64,000 bases of DNA, from NCBI RefSeq assembly GCF_900107665.1, contig NZ_FNQT01000001.1, positions 231,742 through 295,741 on the forward strand, written 5' to 3'. Source of the DNA: Haloplanus vescus. Its GTDB lineage: Archaea; Halobacteriota; Halobacteria; Halobacteriales; Haloferacaceae. Shown here piece by piece: positions 55,744-64,000 of the stretch (position 1 is its first letter; the number at the start of each line of letters is the position of its first letter). The notes beneath the pieces were generated by a model, which saw only the letters and a list, made by a program, of their open reading frames with translations, did no database searches and had not been told where the DNA came from. Both the position numbers and the translations under genes were made by a program.

Positions 55744-55817
55744 GGGCGCTTAGCTCAGCCTGGACAGAGTGTCTGGCTTCGGACCAGATTGTCGCGGGTT
55801 CAAATCCTGCAGCGCCC
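55744..55817 (+). tRNA. tRNA-Arg (anticodon TCG)
   Basis: The sequence folds into a standard cloverleaf. The acceptor GGGCGCT pairs with AGCGCCC. The anticodon stem TCTGG/CCAGA encloses the loop CTTCGGA with anticodon TCG, which reads Arg CGA and, by wobble, CGG. The T-arm is GCGGG-TTCAAAT-CCTGC. No 3' CCA is encoded, as usual in archaea. The last 12 nt are the core repeated near 59,139, so this gene is the attachment site of the adjacent island. Confidence 0.96.
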
Positions 55818-56010
55818 ATGGCCGAATTCTCGTTCGTAATCGCACGACAGCATCGGGGTACTCGTCGACTTTACCCGCTCTCGGCGAAATGGTCTTCCTT
55901 TCGTTCAGCTACCGAACGATCCCGGATCGTGGCGGTTCATCCCGTGGTTCGCTATCGTTAGCATGTGCCACATCGTCCCTAATCATTGGCTCGTTGAACA
56001 TCCCCCACTC
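55806..56010. repeat. Island repeat copy 1: tRNA 3' end plus downstream flank (att-like)
   Basis: The core CCTGCAGCGCCCATGGCCGA (55806-55825) recurs exactly at 59139-59158. About 185 nt of following sequence is also similar in both places, for example ACAGCATCGGGGTA, TTTCCTTTCGTTC, TGTTAGCA-like and TCCCTAATCATTGGC. This marks the tRNA-proximal end of an integrated element. The remaining stretch to 56,211 holds no convincing gene. Confidence 0.8.
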
Positions 56011-56211
56011 ACCAGTAACTGACCCACAACGAGATCACGGGCCGATCCAACTGGTAGCTCGTGGATACGGGCGTTCCATGTCGAGAACCTACGAGTCGGT
56101 TCTCAGTAGACTATCTGCTCGAGAGAGGTGTCTCCCAAGATCCGATCGATACCTTTCAGTTGTACAAGAAATCAAAGTATTCATCGGATATGGAGATGAT
56201 AGGTTCTCCCG

Positions 56212-56544
56212 ATGACCCACATTTCGACGGCCGACTTGGTCGATCAGCTTGAACAGGGAACGACGAACTACTTGGAAGTATTGAGCAAGGACGCGCTGAG
56301 CGTCGAACTCGCACGGTACCCCAATCCTGAGGCAAAAACGGCTCACAAAACCGACGAACTTTATTTCATTATCTCCGGGTCGGGGATGGTCCACGTCGAA
56401 GACGAACGGTATGCTGTCGACGAGGGTGACGTAATCTATGTAGAACAAGGATCCGAACACGAGTTTTTTGATATCGAGGACAAAATCACAGCTCTCGTCG
56501 TCTTTGCGAGTGCCGAAGACACCGTCCTCGGCCACGGCCTCTGA
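56212..56544 (+). CDS. Cupin-domain protein
   Basis: This 110-residue single cupin has the two family motifs: an H/E-poor first motif around ELYFIISGSGMVHVEDERYA and DEGDVIYVEQGSEHEFFDIE as the second. The metal ligands are partly replaced (His and Glu spacing HKTDELYF, SEHEFF). Such proteins bind small ligands or act as isomerases or oxygenases, and the role here is unknown. The ATG at 56212 has a TATA-like GTATTC about 30 nt before it. The base composition is lower in GC than the chromosome upstream, consistent with an island gene. Confidence 0.88.
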   Translation: MTHISTADLVDQLEQGTTNYLEVLSKDALSVELARYPNPEAKTAHKTDELYFIISGSGMVHVEDERYAVDEGDVIYVEQGSEHEFFDIEDKITALVVFASAEDTVLGHGL

Positions 56545-56731
56545 ATGTTATTGAGAATCGTTCGAGCGGCTGTTTGGACAGTTTCTCAAAACCCAGCGCC
56601 AGAGCGTTTTTGCTAACTGCGCCACAGCGTCGATTGAGTTAGTACAGACTCCAAGCCCAGCTGCTCGCGAAGTGTTCGACGACCCTCAAGATACTCGACT
56701 CTTTTTGTATGTACTGCTCATATTAGAATCA

Positions 56732-58156
56732 ATGGAAGACGGTGCGACTCCCGAAGAGAAGAGTAGACACGGGGCTGACTGGTACCGGACGCTCGTTGAA
56801 GAAGTGAACGACCTTGCAACGGTCGTCGATACCGACGGGACCATAACCTACGTCAGTCCGGCCGTCACACGCATCCTTGGCTACGAACCCGACGAGTTGA
56901 TTGGTCACGAGGGATACGAATTCGTCCATCCCGACGACCGAGAGCGAAACGCCGAGGCGGTCGAGGCCGTTCTGTCGATCCCGTCTGAACCGCAGACTGT
57001 CGAAGTCAGATTCCAGCATGCAGACGGATCGTGGCGCTGGATCGAAGCCACGATGAGGAATCGGCTCGATGACGGCCTCATTGACGGGATTCTCCTTAGC
57101 AGTCGAGACATTACTGAGCGAAAAGAGTACGAAATCGAAGTTCGGGAACTCGTCGAAGAGTACGAAGCCCTCCTGAACAATGTCGAGGATGCCATCTTTC
57201 TTATCGATGTTAAACAGTCGGATGATGGTGATATGAGGTTCGAATTCGAACGGCTCAGTCCGTCCTATGAGCGACAAACTGGTCTGACGACCGAGGAAGT
57301 ACAAGGTCGGACGCCACGAAACGTATTCGGTGACGAGCAGGGGGCTGACCTCGAATCAAACTACCACCGCTGTGTCAACGTTGGTGAGCCCATTTCGTAC
57401 CAGGAGGAGCTACGGGTCGAAGAAGGGGCACGGTTCTGGCAAACGAAGCTTGCGCCGGTCGTCACCGATGATGGGATAACTCGCCTCATTGGGGTCACTC
57501 GGAATGTTACCGATCGCGTCGAACGGGAGCGACAGTTACGTCAGCAAAACGAGCGACTCGACGAGTTTGCAAGCGTTATTTCACACGACTTACGTAATCC
57601 ACTCAACGTCGCCCAGGGTCGTGCGACGCTCCTTGCCGAGCGAACAGAAAGCGAACATCTCGACCCACTCCTGCAAGCACTCGATCGAATGGAAGCTATC
57701 GTCGAGGACACGTTGACGCTCGCTCGCCAAGGCGAGACGATCGACGAGGCGGAGTCAATCGGGTTGACCGATCTCGTGGGAAAGTGCTGGGCGACGGTAG
57801 ACACGGCCGATACGACCCTCGAAATTGTCGACGAGATGACGTTCCAAGGCGACCCCGACCGGTTACGGCACGTGTTCGAGAACCTGTTCCGGAACGCTGT
57901 CGAACACGGTGGATCTGACGTGACTGTTCGCGTCGGATGTAACGGCGAACGAGGAATTTTCGTCGAAGACGATGGGCCGGGTATCCCAGTAGACGAACGG
58001 GAAGACGTTCTCGAACCGGGGCATTCGTCGGCCAGTGGTGGTACTGGGTTCGGGTTGACTATCGTAAAACGAATCGTGGAAGCGCATGGCTGGGAGTTGT
58101 CTGTGACCGAGGGAACAGATGGTGGGGCACGGTTCGAGTTCGAGATGGCGGAATAG
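56732..58156 (+). CDS. Soluble PAS-PAS sensor histidine kinase of the island
   Basis: This 474-residue kinase has two PAS domains (residues about 20-135, ATVVDTDGTITYVSPAVTRI, and 145-265). The H-box is VISHDLRNPLNVAQGR near residue 290, N-box NLFRNAVEHGG, G1 VEDDGPGIPVDE and G2 GGTGFGLTIVKRIV. All catalytic residues are present. There is no membrane segment. The ATG at 56732 has a TATA-like TTTTGTATG about 27 nt upstream, which supports a leaderless mRNA over an extension to 56672. It lies between the cupin and VapBC genes. Confidence 0.9.
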   Translation: MEDGATPEEKSRHGADWYRTLVEEVNDLATVVDTDGTITYVSPAVTRILGYEPDELIGHEGYEFVHPDDRERNAEAVEAVLSIPSEPQTVEVRFQHADGSWRWIEATMRNRLDDGLIDGILLSSRDITERKEYEIEVRELVEEYEALLNNVEDAIFLIDVKQSDDGDMRFEFERLSPSYERQTGLTTEEVQGRTPRNVFGDEQGADLESNYHRCVNVGEPISYQEELRVEEGARFWQTKLAPVVTDDGITRLIGVTRNVTDRVERERQLRQQNERLDEFASVISHDLRNPLNVAQGRATLLAERTESEHLDPLLQALDRMEAIVEDTLTLARQGETIDEAESIGLTDLVGKCWATVDTADTTLEIVDEMTFQGDPDRLRHVFENLFRNAVEHGGSDVTVRVGCNGERGIFVEDDGPGIPVDEREDVLEPGHSSASGGTGFGLTIVKRIVEAHGWELSVTEGTDGGARFEFEMAE

Positions 58157-58372
58157 GGAGGCCTACTGTGAGTGGTCGGCCAAGCTCCGCCACCTATGCG
58201 TCGAGAGCTCCGGTTTTAATTCCTGCAACACACCCGTCATGTAGTAGGAATCACTCTAACGGGCTATTGGCAGTGAAGTCTACGCAATCACAGACTGAAC
58301 GAGAGAGCGGGTTCTACCGGCGGTCGCGTCCGTCCGAACTGCCTACTGGAGAGAAGCTCGGCGCCTATCCTG

Positions 58373-58789
58373 TCAGTGCGTGTCGAACGCGTGGATCACG
58401 TCGCTCGTCGAGTATTTCTCGACTACGTTCTGTTCGTCGAAGTCGGAATCGTCACTCCAGATGGCCGCATCGCTCGCAATCGCACAGGCCAAGTAGAGTA
58501 CATCGTCGGGATCAGTGTCGCCGATCGCTGTGTCCGCCTCCTCGATAGCCGGATGGAACTCGTCGGCAGGGGCGACCTCGATGTACTGGAACAGGAGATC
58601 GACGAACTGCGCTACTCGATCCGGATCCATCCCGGACTTCTCCACGATCAACTCCTCGTAGTTCTCGATCTCGTCGTAGACGAACGTGGGAGTCAGGAGA
58701 TCGGGTTCAAGCGTGACGATGAGCTCTCGCGTTTCCGAGTCGGCGATGAGTGCAGAGATGACGACGTTGGCGTCGACGACCAGCTTCAT
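58373..58789 (-). CDS. VapC-like PIN-domain toxin (putative ribonuclease)
   Basis: This 138-residue PIN-domain protein retains the acidic residues of the nuclease site: Asp in VVDANVVISAL near the N-terminus, Glu in VYDEIENYEEL, and Asp in DPDDVLYLACAIA and WSDDSDFDEQ. VapC toxins cleave tRNA or rRNA when not held by the antitoxin. It lies 8 nt after its ribbon-helix-helix partner. The genes face into the island from its right end. Confidence 0.85.
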   Translation of the reverse strand: MKLVVDANVVISALIADSETRELIVTLEPDLLTPTFVYDEIENYEELIVEKSGMDPDRVAQFVDLLFQYIEVAPADEFHPAIEEADTAIGDTDPDDVLYLACAIASDAAIWSDDSDFDEQNVVEKYSTSDVIHAFDTH

Positions 58790-58797
58790 TCGTCGTC

Positions 58798-59028
58798 TTA
58801 CGCCGATTCCTCGTCGACGCGCTCGCGTCCGCTCTCGTTTATCTTGTCGGCGATCTCCTGTACGTCGCTCTCGGTGAGGTCACTCTCGCTCGTGAGTTCA
58901 TCCATCACTTCGAGCGCGTCGATTTTCTCTTCGATCGCCTGCCGCGTGACCTCGCTCCAGTTGATCTCCGGATGCTTCTCCATTCGCTCTTTGAGGTCGT
59001 CGTCTACGTTGACCGTGATGGTAGGCAT
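58798..59028 (-). CDS. VapB-like ribbon-helix-helix antitoxin
   Basis: This 76-residue protein has an N-terminal ribbon-helix-helix domain (MPTITVNVDDDLKERMEKHP, INWSEVTRQAIEEKIDALE) and an acidic C-terminal tail that should bind the toxin. RHH antitoxins repress their own promoter. A perfect inverted repeat sits 13-35 nt upstream of the start, over the expected TATA box, so it is the likely operator. Confidence 0.85.
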   Translation of the reverse strand: MPTITVNVDDDLKERMEKHPEINWSEVTRQAIEEKIDALEVMDELTSESDLTESDVQEIADKINESGRERVDEESA

Positions 59029-59041
59029 AATGAAATCTATG

Positions 59042-59063
59042 AAGACACAGAATACTGTGTCTT
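59042..59063. promoter_or_regulatory. Candidate VapB operator: 9-bp perfect inverted repeat
   Basis: The arms AAGACACAG (59042-59050) and CTGTGTCTT (59055-59063) flank AATA. On the minus strand the centre reads AGTATTCT, a TATA-like box about 26 nt before the vapB ATG. An RHH dimer bound here would block transcription of vapBC. Confidence 0.55.
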
Positions 59064-59084
59064 TCGGTGTGTTCTATTCTCCTC

Positions 59085-59345
59085 GAATTCGACCGTTTCA
59101 GGCCCATCAAGGGACTTCGTTCACCGACCGAACGAGCGCCTGCAGCGCCCATGGCCGATTTTCCGGGTCGTAATCGCATGACAGCATCGGGGTAATACTC
59201 AGTTTCACCCTCTTTCGACGCAATGGGTTTCCTTTCGTTCGCAGAGCGAACGATGCTGGATTGTGGCGGTTCAATCCCATGGTTCGCTATTGTTAGCACG
59301 CACCACACTATCCCTAATCATTGGCCCACTGAGAACCTCTCAGTT
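59085..59345. repeat. Island repeat copy 2: att-like core and flanks
   Basis: The 20-nt core of copy 1 is identical here (59139-59158), followed by about 190 nt similar to the flank of copy 1. The 45 nt before the core (ATTCGACCG to GAGCG) is also similar to that before copy 3 at 61,571-61,620. The stretch from 59,346 to 59,658 holds no supported gene. Confidence 0.75.
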
Positions 59346-59658
59346 ACGATCACCGGCCTGCAGGCGTTCCATATCGAGAAACTACCAGTAGACACACCAT
59401 TGAAGCCGCTGCTGAATACAGGGTGCGAATGTTACACGACGGGGTACCGAGTACGAACTCGCAAGTCACCGTTGACGAACCAGTTAGCGTCCTCACAGCA
59501 CTTGGGATGCTCGTGAACAGCCACGGGCGTGAGGACCCGTTTCTTCTCCTGCAGGTCAGTGTGACATGCCCGTGAGTCCCGACGTAGTGCCCTCGGGAGG
59601 CCATCCAGCAGCATAAATGGTCGTCACCTATTTCACGACTTCCTACAGAACTACTGCC

Positions 59659-60573
59659 ATGTCCTATTCACTTCTCTACGTTGATCCAGATGAATCAACC
59701 CAGACAGAGACGGCCGCTACTCTGAGCGATTCTCTCGCAGACCTTGATCCGGACATTAGTACGGCAGTTTCCCTTGCGGAGGCTACGGAGGCACTAACTG
59801 TTGATCTCTCTGTCCTTATCACAGAGTATGATCTTCCGGACGGCACTGGGTTTGAGCTTATCAAGAAGGCCCAAGACGTCTGCCCGGATGCGGCGTGTAT
59901 TCTCTATACCGATGCGGATGTCTCCCAACTCAATACCGATGACCTCCACGGGGCAATTACCGAATATGTTGGCAAACACTCTGTGTTTGGAGACAATCGC
60001 TTGACCGATCTTGTACGCACGAGCCTCACTACCACACCCCACACCGACTATCCCAAGCCCCAGACGGAAGCCGAACGTCTCACCGCTCTCCGCTCATACG
60101 CACTTGATGATCCTAAGTTGGTTGGGTCGCTTGATCGAATCACGGACTTGGCCGCCGCTCATTTCGAGGTTGAGATTGCGTCAGTCAATATCATTGACGA
60201 TCGGAGTCAAGAATTTCTTGCGTGTCATGGGGCCGCCGAAGAGTGGGAGTCGATGCATCGGGAAGATTCGATCTGCACGTTTACGATTGTTGAAGATGCG
60301 GACGTCATGACTGTTGCGGACGTCGCTGAGGATCCCCGGTTTGCGTCCCGTAGTGGGTCACTCATCGATATGGGGATACGCTCGTACATGGGTGCGAGTT
60401 TGGTGACCGCTTCCGGCTTGCCGATCGGGACTCTGTGTGTCTATGATAACGAGGTACGATCGTTTTCAGCAGACGATGAAGCCTACCTCAAAGATTTGGC
60501 AACCACCGCGATGAATCTGATCGACGCATACGCTCGGACTCCAGCGATGACTGATGATGGAGGTGCCCAATGA
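59659..60573 (+). CDS. Response-regulator receiver plus GAF protein
   Basis: This 304-residue protein has an N-terminal receiver-like domain (YSLLYVDPDESTQTETAATL) with the acidic residue in SVLITEYDLPDGTGFELIKK; the usual phospho-acceptor position is Glu-Tyr-Asp. A GAF domain (residues 150-285) follows with VASVN-type IASVNIIDDRSQEFLACHG and GASLVTASGLPIGTLCVYD. The ATG at 59659 has CCTATTT about 27 nt upstream. Its stop overlaps the next gene as ATGA. AT-richer than the chromosome. Confidence 0.86.
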   Translation: MSYSLLYVDPDESTQTETAATLSDSLADLDPDISTAVSLAEATEALTVDLSVLITEYDLPDGTGFELIKKAQDVCPDAACILYTDADVSQLNTDDLHGAITEYVGKHSVFGDNRLTDLVRTSLTTTPHTDYPKPQTEAERLTALRSYALDDPKLVGSLDRITDLAAAHFEVEIASVNIIDDRSQEFLACHGAAEEWESMHREDSICTFTIVEDADVMTVADVAEDPRFASRSGSLIDMGIRSYMGASLVTASGLPIGTLCVYDNEVRSFSADDEAYLKDLATTAMNLIDAYARTPAMTDDGGAQ

Positions 60574-61259
60574 GCGGAAGTCAGGACGTCAGTTACCAGT
60601 TCTCAGATCGGCTCCCGATTAATCCGATTGAGCCGGGATCGACGGTGATGGTTGCCGGCCCCAAGTTCAGTCCGGCCGAGGACCTCGCCCTCTCGATGGT
60701 CGCTGATGCCGCAACACATGAGGAGGGGATGTTGTTCCTCTCCACGAACATGACCGTAGAGAGATTGCTATCGGCTTGTCAACAATCACAGCCAGGATTA
60801 GAGCCGTCTCATGTCGGCGTTGTTGACTGCACAGGCCAAGATATCGGGGATGCCGACTCCGAGGCAGAGGTCATGTACGTTTCGACACAGAGTGATCTGA
60901 CCGGAATGGGGATGAAATTCTCGTCATTGTACGAGTCGTTATATCAGAATCACCCTGACGGCCGAGTGCGGATCGGACTGGTAAGTTTGTCATCACTCGT
61001 GATGTATGCCGACTTACGAGACGTGTTCAGGTTCGCGCAGACGATTTCAGCCCGGATTGAGAGTGCTGGTGGGCTCGGGGTATTTACTATTGATCCATCG
61101 ATGCACGATACACAAATAGTGAACACTCTAAAGCAGGTCGCTGACGGGCTCGTTCAGGTCCGCGACGCTGATGCAGACACATCGAAGACTGCTGACGGAG
61201 AACTCCAAATCAAGGGCTTTCGTAATCAGTCTCCTGACTGGCAGCCCTTCAGCCTCTAG
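60570..61259 (+). CDS. KaiC/RecA-like superfamily protein (DUF7504/HTR-like) coupled to the REC-GAF gene
   Basis: This 229-residue protein resembles KaiC-like or RecA-like proteins that have lost the Walker A motif. It has GSTVMVAGPKFSPAEDLALS where a P-loop would be, then FLSTNMTVERLLSACQQS and VRIGLVSLSSLVMYADLRDV. Haloarchaeal HTR-like proteins of this type lie beside receiver or bat-type genes. The ATG overlaps the REC-GAF stop. It may act as the output or partner of that signal protein. Confidence 0.75.
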   Translation: MSGSQDVSYQFSDRLPINPIEPGSTVMVAGPKFSPAEDLALSMVADAATHEEGMLFLSTNMTVERLLSACQQSQPGLEPSHVGVVDCTGQDIGDADSEAEVMYVSTQSDLTGMGMKFSSLYESLYQNHPDGRVRIGLVSLSSLVMYADLRDVFRFAQTISARIESAGGLGVFTIDPSMHDTQIVNTLKQVADGLVQVRDADADTSKTADGELQIKGFRNQSPDWQPFSL

Positions 61260-61620
61260 TGACGATTGGTTGGCGTTGAACATTCCTGTGCCTTCTAACT
61301 CCCAGGGAGTGCCACCTGGGAGGCCGCGGTTCTATACAGGCTCCAGCCGTGAGCGATGGGCGTTCCAATAATCTTAGCTGGACGTGTGCCCACCCCAGAG
61401 ATGAGGTGAGAACTCAGCTGTTGAGTGGGGAGTCAATCCAAGAACGCTCTTAGGTGAGCGATTGTTGGTGGGCTGCTATCTGGTTTTGGAGGCGGGATAC
61501 ATTCGCCAACGGCAGCGCAGAAGCCACCGAACAGAGGATCAAACTGGAGGGGTCCTCGGTACGCCATAAATTCGACCGCCTCACGCCCGAAAGGACGATT
61601 CATTCATTGTTCGAACAAGC
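61260..61620. other. Gene-poor island stretch with a small inverted repeat
   Basis: CTCCCAGG (61299-61306) is mirrored by CCTGGGAG (61315-61322), 40 nt after the KaiC-like stop, and could be a terminator-like hairpin. I see no supported gene. A short frame ending near 61,660 resembles the 45-nt pre-core flank of copy 2, so this is partly repeat. Confidence 0.4.
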
Positions 61621-61840
61621 GCCTGCAGCACCTATCTTGCTGCCGCGAACGAATCCGTGAGCGGCGGCAACGTGAACTGATTTGAATCCGGCAGTGGCAA
61701 CGTAAGTGGGCCCACGGTGAGGTTCAACTTCTGCAATGCCTATGGTTGAACTCTCGTTCGCAATCGCACGATTCCGGATTGTGATGGTCCGGATTGCGGT
61801 CCACTGCTGTTAGCATGCACCACAATATCCAGATTATAAT
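61571..61840. repeat. Island repeat copies 3a and 3b: decayed att core and tRNA 3' fragment
   Basis: GCCTGCAGCACC (61621-61632) is copy 2's core with one change, preceded by the shared pre-core flank. About 90 nt later, GGTTCAACTTCTGCAATGCC (61721-61740) matches the tRNA-Arg T-arm and 3' end with changes, followed by TATGGTTGAACTCTCGTTCG, ATCGCACG and GTTAGCATGCACCAC as in copy 1. Confidence 0.65.
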
Positions 61841-61975: not shown

Positions 61976-62362
61976 ATGCCCTCCATTACACGACGAAAGG
62001 CGATTTCCCTACTCACAGGGTGTGTTGCACTCGGCGCAATCGGCGGTGTCGTTGCCCATACGACACAAAAGGATGCCCCGAATCTACTCGTGAATAATCA
62101 GACAGACAGCGAACTACAGGTCACGACGGTCATCCGTACCGCTGACGATGGTGAAGTGATCGTCGACGACACTGCATCGATTTCAGCGAATGGCGATCAC
62201 GGATACACAGGCCTTGCTGCAAACGAGCCGCTCGATGTGACGATTCGGACGAATACCGGATTGGAGAACTCGTACCGATGGGAGCAAACCAATCCGGAGA
62301 ATACGCTGTCTGTCGGCATCTCCGCCGACGAGATCGGGTTCGTCGTTGCGATGCCGCCCTAA
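61976..62362 (+). CDS. TAT lipoprotein-like hypothetical protein
   Basis: This 128-residue protein has a twin-arginine-type signal with a possible lipobox (TRRKAISLLTGCVALGAIGG). The mature part is beta-rich with NLLVNNQTDSELQVTTVIRT, similar in style to the protein at 21,572. I chose the ATG at 61976 because a TTTTATG (61,944-61,950) is about 27 nt upstream; a GTG at 61967 would add three residues. AT-richer than the flanks. Confidence 0.7.
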   Translation: MPSITRRKAISLLTGCVALGAIGGVVAHTTQKDAPNLLVNNQTDSELQVTTVIRTADDGEVIVDDTASISANGDHGYTGLAANEPLDVTIRTNTGLENSYRWEQTNPENTLSVGISADEIGFVVAMPP

Positions 62363-62955: not shown

Positions 62956-64000
62956 TCACAGACCAAGTCCCGTACTGTATTCCAACGTTCCGAACCCGGT
63001 ACCCATCGACTCGCCGTCTATCCGCGTGCCGCCGACATGTCCAGCGAGTCCGGTCGTCCGGAACATGAACTCGTTGTAACTCCAGTGAGACGTAAAGCGG
63101 CCACCGAGTCTCGACCGGTCGAGCCAGTTTCGCGCCCGGCCGTAGGTCCGGGCAACGAACCGGACGTAATCGCCGTCCTCGTTCTCGACGCGAACGTCGA
63201 AGTCAGGCGAATCGCCAGTCCCCAACAGTGGCTCGATAGATATTCTATCAAACTCGACATGCCCCTCTCTCGAGCCCCAGCTCCAGAATCCGGACTGTCG
63301 AAGCGGTATCGTCAGTCGTTCGAGTCTGTTCGAGGAGAAGAACTTGTAGCCTCGGCGGAATAGTTGTGGCCCGATAAACGGAATCAGTGCCGAGAAAGAG
63401 GTGCCGTCCGGGAAGAGCGCCCAGATCCACTTCCAAGGGAGCAGCGGCATGTCGAAACACACGCGCTGGAAGTAACACGACCCAGACAGCGTCTCGGGGC
63501 CGTCCGGCAGGTCGAACTCTCCTTCGAACTCCATCTGGCGCCACGCAACGACTTCGGCGCCACCCAGCGGTGTGTCGATATCCAGTGAGTGGTGTGGTGA
63601 GGTCATCTTCGAGTCGAGGGTACCCCACGCCTCGAACTCCGCCTCGGCGTCGTCGCCGATGACGTGGGCCTGCAATCCAAGGGGGCGGTCCGAGAGCGCG
63701 GCCATCTCGCTTCCGCGTCTGGTGCCGTCCTCGCGGTCTGCCCAGGCCTCGAGACGTTGGTCCTCGCGGCAGAGCACCGCTTCGGCTGGTTGTCTGACGA
63801 CGTGGTCGTGGACCGCTTCGTCGTCGCCGGTCCAACCAACCGTCGTCGCGTTGAATCTGTCCACACCGTTGACGATAGGACGGTCGGCATCCATCCGCTG
63901 AGGCGGGAGGTCGTTCACACGGCACTGGTCGCCCACACAGGCAGCTATCGAGAACATCAGCTGTCTCGGACCGTAGCCCTCCTCACCCTCCGGAAACAGG
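62956..64000 (-). CDS. Lipocalin-like protein (CrtC/AttH or DUF2804-like), N-terminus beyond window
   Basis: The frame remains open to the window edge (LFPEGEEGYGPRQLMFSIAA), so the gene is truncated at its 5' end. The visible 347 or so residues are strand-rich with Trp motifs, notably LSGSCYFQRVCFDMPLLPWK and WIWALFPDGTSFSALIPFIG, and SGFWSWGSREGHVEFDRISI. This resembles two-domain lipocalin-like proteins related to carotenoid hydratase or DUF2804. The function is unknown. The internal ATG at 63957 is unlikely to be the true start. GC content is again chromosome-like. Confidence 0.7.
   Translation of the reverse strand, partial: LFPEGEEGYGPRQLMFSIAACVGDQCRVNDLPPQRMDADRPIVNGVDRFNATTVGWTGDDEAVHDHVVRQPAEAVLCREDQRLEAWADREDGTRRGSEMAALSDRPLGLQAHVIGDDAEAEFEAWGTLDSKMTSPHHSLDIDTPLGGAEVVAWRQMEFEGEFDLPDGPETLSGSCYFQRVCFDMPLLPWKWIWALFPDGTSFSALIPFIGPQLFRRGYKFFSSNRLERLTIPLRQSGFWSWGSREGHVEFDRISIEPLLGTGDSPDFDVRVENEDGDYVRFVARTYGRARNWLDRSRLGGRFTSHWSYNEFMFRTTGLAGHVGGTRIDGESMGTGFGTLEYSTGLGL

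Follow-up and report, generated by a model that had tools for sequence, protein, structure and literature searches.

Integrase-less gene cassettes stacked in tandem behind a tRNA-Arg(TCG) gene of Haloplanus vescus and probably mobilised in trans

A stretch of 64,000 nucleotides from the haloarchaeon Haloplanus vescus (contig NZ_FNQT01000001.1, positions 231,742 to 295,741; hereafter the window) carries, directly behind its tRNA-Arg(TCG) gene, a tandem array of small gene cassettes that have no integrase of their own. The array is best explained as a stack of cassettes that were mobilised in trans and entered at this tRNA gene, a reading to which a probability of about three in four is given. 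It extends from position 55,806 to the equivalent of position 64,389, just beyond the window edge (64,389 corresponds to G000:C1:296130, where G000 is the window genome), and two complete modules and most of a third lie within the window. A first-pass annotation of the window had proposed that the tRNA 3' end seeds a tandem array of integrated modules in the absence of a local integrase. This proposal is now supported by a near-empty site in a related genome, by module sets that differ between relatives, by exact core-to-core boundaries and by the presence elsewhere of a cognate integrase with the same ends.

Results

The tRNA gene was identified with ARAGORN and Rfam RF00005, the cassette ends were scored with nhmmer and the cargo domains were assigned by Pfam. 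The alignment of copies from related genomes showed that the attachment unit consists of a right end (R, ~60 nt), a ~20-nt core that corresponds to the 3' end of tRNA-Arg(TCG), and a left end (L, ~220 nt). The array is ordered tRNA-core-L-cargo-R-core-L-cargo-R-core, with core and L only at the tRNA, all three parts between modules, and R and core only at the far end. An intact tRNA-Arg(TCG) is retained at one border. The parts of the array are as follows.

55744..55818, + strand: tRNA-Arg (anticodon TCG), integration target (ARAGORN; Rfam RF00005)
55806..55825, +: attL core CCTGCAGCGCCCATGGCCGA, the last 13 nt of the tRNA gene plus the following bases
55806..56036, +: left end L of cassette 1, core + ~220 nt (nhmmer, 176.7 bits)
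55901..55919, +: palindrome TCGTTC-N7-GAACGA in L of cassette 1
56212..56544, +: cargo, cupin protein, 110 aa (PF07883)
56732..58156, +: cargo, PAS-PAS-HisKA-HATPase sensor kinase, 474 aa (Pfam)
58210..58235, +: decayed T-arm and core GGTTTTAATTCCTGCAACACACCC, left boundary of a VapBC mini-cassette (aligns with the intact cores of the G074 and A07HR60 VapBC cassettes)
58373..58789, -: PIN-domain (VapC-like) toxin, 138 aa (PF10130)
58798..59028, -: VapB-like antitoxin, 76 aa, start codon 50 nt from R (weak VapB-family match)
59078..59158, +: right end R and core, closing cassette 1 (84.4 bits)
59117..59135, +: palindrome TCGTTC-N7-GAACGA in R
59139..59378, +: core and left end L of cassette 2 (171 bits)
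59235..59253, +: palindrome TCGTTC-N7-GAACGA in L of cassette 2
59617..60573, +: cargo, GAF (weak REC) protein, 318 aa (Pfam)
60570..61259, +: cargo, DUF7504 protein, 229 aa (PF24336)
61568..61636, +: decayed R and core, closing cassette 2 (43 bits)
61622..61720, +: half-tRNA scar, homologous to what follows tRNA-Arg in the near-empty locus of G101 (77% over 79 nt)
61721..61777, +: T-arm, core and decayed L start of cassette 3 (82% to the tRNA copy; 20.6 bits)
61976..62362, +: cargo of cassette 3, 128-aa protein with a signal-like N-terminus (open reading frame calling; no confident family)
62956..64000, -: cargo of cassette 3, 385-aa protein with no family assigned, extending beyond the window
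G000:C1:296065-296130 (window-equivalent 64,324-64,389): R closing cassette 3

The 20-nt core CCTGCAGCGCCCATGGCCGA recurs exactly at 59139-59158, as the first-pass annotation had stated, and the flank of about 190 nt that it described as repeated extends ~187 nt downstream of the core at 81% identity (E 2.4e-42). The drop in GC content inside the array, from ~0.70 to ~0.53, was likewise borne out. The two decayed copies that it had placed further out are both real but differ in kind, the one at 61568-61636 being R and core and the one at ~61721-61777 being T-arm, core and the start of L, with a scar of ~85 nt between them. The cupin, the kinase and the PIN toxin with its VapB-like antitoxin were all recovered in the 3.3-kb module, and the cargo of the second module proved to be the GAF (weak REC) and DUF7504 proteins. 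However, the 3.3-kb module is not single but composite. It is divided in two by the decayed T-arm and core at ~58,222, which occupies the position of the intact cores in free-standing VapBC cassettes of ~0.94 kb in G074 and in the uncultured archaeon A07HR60 (78-79% nucleotide identity). This decayed core, the ~60-nt R upstream of the core, the end of module 3 at 64,389 and the occurrence of the repeat in six further members of the genus had all been beyond the view of that annotation. No recombinase gene was seen in the array among the open reading frames and their Pfam matches, as it had reported. The Pfam-tested cargo contained no transfer genes, and no convincing defence system emerged from the cassette proteins submitted to PADLOC.

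The palindrome TCGTTC-N7-GAACGA is common to R and L and has a fixed position in each, in R just before the core (3 nt between) and in L ~95 nt after the core start. With at most one mismatch it was present in 28 of 36 R copies and 37 of 43 L copies, compared with 0.0001 and 0.0006 in shuffled copies. Since both ends carry the same symmetrical motif, a single protein may bind both. L is well conserved and non-coding. The possibility that it encodes an RNA was considered and rejected, as the consensus fold was unsupported (covariation term -0.74) and no credible Rfam match besides the tRNA was obtained.

Comparison of the tRNA-Arg locus in related genomes, which the first-pass annotation had recommended, showed that the module sets do differ. 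Genome G101, from another species, has a near-empty site, with the same left neighbours (77% nucleotide identity), an identical tRNA-Arg, a 106-nt half-tRNA scar and then a helicase gene (84%). In the window genome, the gap between the tRNA and the helicase gene is filled by 8.6 kb of array. The scar in G101 is homologous to window positions 61622-61694, between modules 2 and 3, and because of this match modules 1 and 2 would have entered between the tRNA and the scar, later than module 3. The decay of R with distance from the tRNA (84, 43 and 34 bits) fits this order of arrival. Elsewhere, what stands behind tRNA-Arg(TCG) varies: several cassettes in G106 and G111, a VapBC cassette in G074, a 16-kb element with int in G101 and an unrelated, restriction-enzyme-like element in G024, while no array adjoins the gene in G096. 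G101 carries tRNA-Arg(TCG) twice, with a different gene block, A or B, beside each copy (L106, L109); the other genomes examined have one, beside block A or block B. A rearrangement of the left flank that exchanged the two blocks next to tRNA-Arg was considered as a possibility, but G101 has the tRNA gene at both. A hairpin of ~100 nt with the half-tRNA scar was also observed directly after tRNA-Arg in several species (L032 6350-6450, L105, L051 and L109) and is decayed in the window at 61622-61720.

Evidence for movement came from a cassette of 1.6 kb that is present in four genomes (G096, G090, G106 and G111) and carries two genes, one PIN-like ('DSSVLISCGRRD', without a Pfam match) and one TrmB-type/DUF7437. 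The copies are 89-96% identical from core to core and their flanks are unrelated (34-40%), with the exception of a right flank common to G090 and G111 that is 62% identical. Because the same cassette has unrelated flanks in four genomes, the cassettes appear to move as integrase-less units. Furthermore, int is missing from every one of the four copies, which are colinear in structure, and they therefore spread after int was lost.

The repeat was searched in 148 genomes of the family and 12 of the genus. Full-length matches were essentially confined to the genus, where 7 of the 12 genomes carry the repeat; in other genera it was nearly always the tRNA 3' end alone that matched, the exceptions being a weak L-like copy in G145 and R with a partial L on a Natrinema plasmid. 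The copies are ~85% alike and dispersed on both strands. Tandem copies stand behind tRNA-Arg in G106, G111 and the window genome, and copies without a tRNA occur elsewhere. In those genomes of which the loci were read, the count of complete L-to-R units came to 25, with lengths of 1.6-14.4 kb (median 4.3 kb), and one of these units contains an integrase. The repeat was absent from all phage records and present on one Natrinema plasmid. The junction pattern had no match in viral_contigs or genome_contigs, possibly because near relatives are excluded there. On the 881-kb plasmid of Natrinema sp. SYSU A 869 (L145), the R-core-L junction adjoins arsenic genes, and an interrupted integrase lies nearby.

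A cognate integrase was found in the relatives. The tyrosine integrase of family F9 (336 aa; PF02899 and PF00589) shares 45% identity with IntSNJ2 across 99% of its length and has conserved the catalytic R, HxxR and Y. It falls within the SNJ2 family as defined by an identity of 30% or more across most of the sequence together with SAM-like and Phage_integrase domains; its scores against XerC, XerD and archaeal XerA are far under the respective cut-offs. The gene adjoins R on the opposite strand in G096 (at 439 kb, with the start codon 45 nt from R) and, as a truncated copy, in G111 (44 nt). An integrase adjacent to the core CTGCAGCGCC was found in G096 (two loci), G101, G111 (the truncated copy) and G046, and relatives of F9 stand beside a core with a different or degenerate R in G096 (2.55 Mb), G101 and G046. 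Remnants of int, truncated or broken, adjoin R or the core in G111, G062 and G096. In most vapB cassettes the vapB start codon is 48-52 nt from R, the slot that int occupies in other elements.

Outside the genus, the F9 integrase is 82% identical to one on a Halolamina plasmid, where the core is broken, and relatives 93-95% identical are present in GTDB genomes of Halorubrum halophilum and Natronomonas aquatica. R and core also stand beside an integrase on plasmids of DL31 and Haloterrigena. Of 30 loci in genomes, 9 have an exact tRNA-Arg(TCG) core at ~104-118 nt from int. In most members of the family the core precedes the int start codon by this distance, and in G046 by 174 nt. The integrase had no match in viral_contigs. 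In Salinadaptatus halalkaliphilus (L168 4638-7130, reverse complement), tRNA-Arg(TCG) is followed by a PIN-like/TrmB pair, int and R-core in an element of 2.49 kb, and the 1.6-kb cassette is colinear with this element except for int (79.6% across 1.1 kb, 86% across the R end). Several core-bearing units stand behind tRNA-Arg(TCG) in A07HR60 (L175), among them one with int and one with VapBC. An int-less unit in tandem with an int element that shares its site was seen in A07HR60, and also in G096, but not in the window genome. More distant integrase relatives in Halorubrum and Halobellus (L169-L174, L178) have another core, CCCGTCGCGCCC, and one of these loci lies near tRNA-Arg(CCG); a change of target within the integrase family is possible, judging from this core.

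Discussion

The favoured explanation is that small cassettes of the format core-L...cargo...R-core entered successively at the 3' end of tRNA-Arg(TCG). Each arrival would have rebuilt the tRNA 3' end and displaced the older cassettes outward, and neighbouring cassettes are joined by R-core-L, the attP form expected on an excised circle. The catalyst would most likely be an SNJ2-type tyrosine integrase specific to tRNA-Arg(TCG), acting in trans on cassettes that have both arms but no int. The toxin-antitoxin genes in the slot of int next to R probably aid retention of the cassette. The first-pass annotation had reasoned that the modules were either mobilised from elsewhere or remnants, and both appear to hold: the family has moved without int, and the window copy is decaying. 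Because no cognate integrase was found in the window genome and the array has decayed at its distal ends, it is probably now stranded rather than mobile.

Several points weigh against this explanation. Excision and integration are predictions from the sequence, no event having been observed. The window genome has no cognate integrase, its only two members of the family being 49% and 39% identical and standing beside other tRNA 3' ends, and the left end of the Salinadaptatus element is not recognisable as the same L. In relatives, many of the copies are not at tRNA genes, a distribution for which simple tRNA targeting does not account. Moreover, R-core-L repeats of ~300 nt could also be exchanged by homologous recombination.

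The possibility was considered that the cassettes were spread and shuffled by homologous recombination between these repeats, with no integrase involved. The likeness and dispersal of the repeats on both strands would suit this process, as would the right-flank genes of the G106 array, which in G111 lie 1.45 Mb from the tRNA array, on the other strand and beside another repeat. However, site-specific recombination is favoured by the identity of the core with the tRNA 3' end, by the position of the newest copies beside the tRNA, by the near-empty tRNA site and by the existence of a cognate integrase that has these arms, and homologous recombination is unlikely to be the whole explanation. It may well contribute, especially to the copies away from tRNA genes. 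Somewhat less probable still is that every module arrived with its own integrase and lost it after integration, with no movement in trans. Such loss is the usual explanation in archaea (PMC8371274), and the int remnants in G111, G062 and G096 agree with it, but the presence of an int-less, colinear 1.6-kb cassette at four unrelated positions indicates that int was lost before the spread, and a single unit out of 25 has int. A genus-specific dispersed element, MITE-like (miniature inverted-repeat transposable element) or a regulatory RNA, that acquired its tRNA tail by chance is very improbable. Copies without a tRNA do occur, and L is conserved without coding for protein; nevertheless, R and L are paired around cargo, R and core stand beside int on plasmids, and neither the covariation term nor the Rfam search described above favours an RNA. 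The first-pass annotation had held that a dispersed element not tied to tRNA genes would speak against its proposal: copies away from tRNA genes were indeed found, but their core is still the 3' end of tRNA-Arg(TCG).

Among known systems, the cassettes stacked at tRNA-Arg(TCG) resemble the cis-mobilisable elements (CIMEs), a family defined by att ends that are kept and integration and transfer genes that are lost. The cassettes of the window have both att ends and, among the cargo tested with Pfam, neither kind of gene, and the integrase that a tRNA-targeted integrative element carries within it is missing from the array. Like the Streptococcus CIMEs, they have retained att sites, lost integration genes and accreted in tandem with relatives; unlike them, they are much smaller and more numerous and have one common att unit of ~300 nt, and no conjugative helper was seen. 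Integrons are arrays of short cassettes in which one integrase acts on a shared site and toxin-antitoxin cassettes are common. The short cassettes, the shared site and the toxin-antitoxin cargo are features that the array has in common with integrons, including those of archaea (PMC9668308). However, its site appears to have two arms around a tRNA core in the manner of attP, rather than being a folded attC, entry is at a tRNA gene, and no IntI stands next to the array.

SNJ2-type elements (betapleolipoviruses; PMC8371274, PMC7911831) have in common with the present family the SAM-like and catalytic integrase domains and a short att at a tRNA 3' end, but the window array has neither int nor recognised virus genes. 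Furthermore, the attP of pleolipoviruses lies in coding sequence starting near the end of int, whereas in the int-carrying relatives the core is ~100-175 nt upstream of the int start. The array is neither an integron nor a pleolipovirus provirus. The ssrA genomic islands of Dehalococcoides (PMC3146451) are similar in being tandem islands behind one tRNA-like gene with direct repeats of its 3' end, and about half of them have no integration module and were proposed to be cis-mobilisable elements. They differ in having a serine recombinase and reductive dehalogenases as cargo (PMC3146451), whereas the arrays described here are archaeal, are associated with a tyrosine integrase, have two long arms with a common palindrome and units down to ~0.9 kb, carry toxin-antitoxin genes in the int slot and have many copies away from the target gene. 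By analogy, the array would work like cis-mobilisable elements and int-less ssrA islands and may be regarded as a haloarchaeal counterpart of CIMEs.

Both integrase loss and tandem integration are already known in archaea (PMC8371274); no description of such haloarchaeal cassette arrays was found in the literature, within the partial coverage of the search. If the cassettes do move in trans, they would provide haloarchaea with a route for exchanging gene packets of 1-10 kb that contain sensors, transporters and toxin-antitoxin pairs. The Islander method requires an integrase in each island (PMC4383910), and searches keyed to the integrase in this way would overlook these packets. The anatomy supplies precise attP and attB sequences and a matching integrase, making the idea directly testable. 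A broader and more tentative proposal, which we hold to be possible but rather less than even odds, is an integron-like cassette economy in haloarchaea. In this view, a single clade of SNJ2-type integrases, carried by plasmids and integrative elements, would serve a large pool of int-less cassettes with the ~300-nt unit in common. The cassettes would collect at tRNA-Arg(TCG), move about between sites and between species, and be kept in place by toxin-antitoxin genes that replace int.

The repeats may also help to explain rearrangements between species of the genus. The gene pair on the right flank of the G106 array (L033) is found in G111 (L047, L044) at the distant, opposite-strand position mentioned above, the adjoining repeat being R-core-L, and in G090 (L042) it lies beside an R-core-L repeat ~450 kb from the tRNA. 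From these positions, the repeats may mark breakpoints of chromosome rearrangement.

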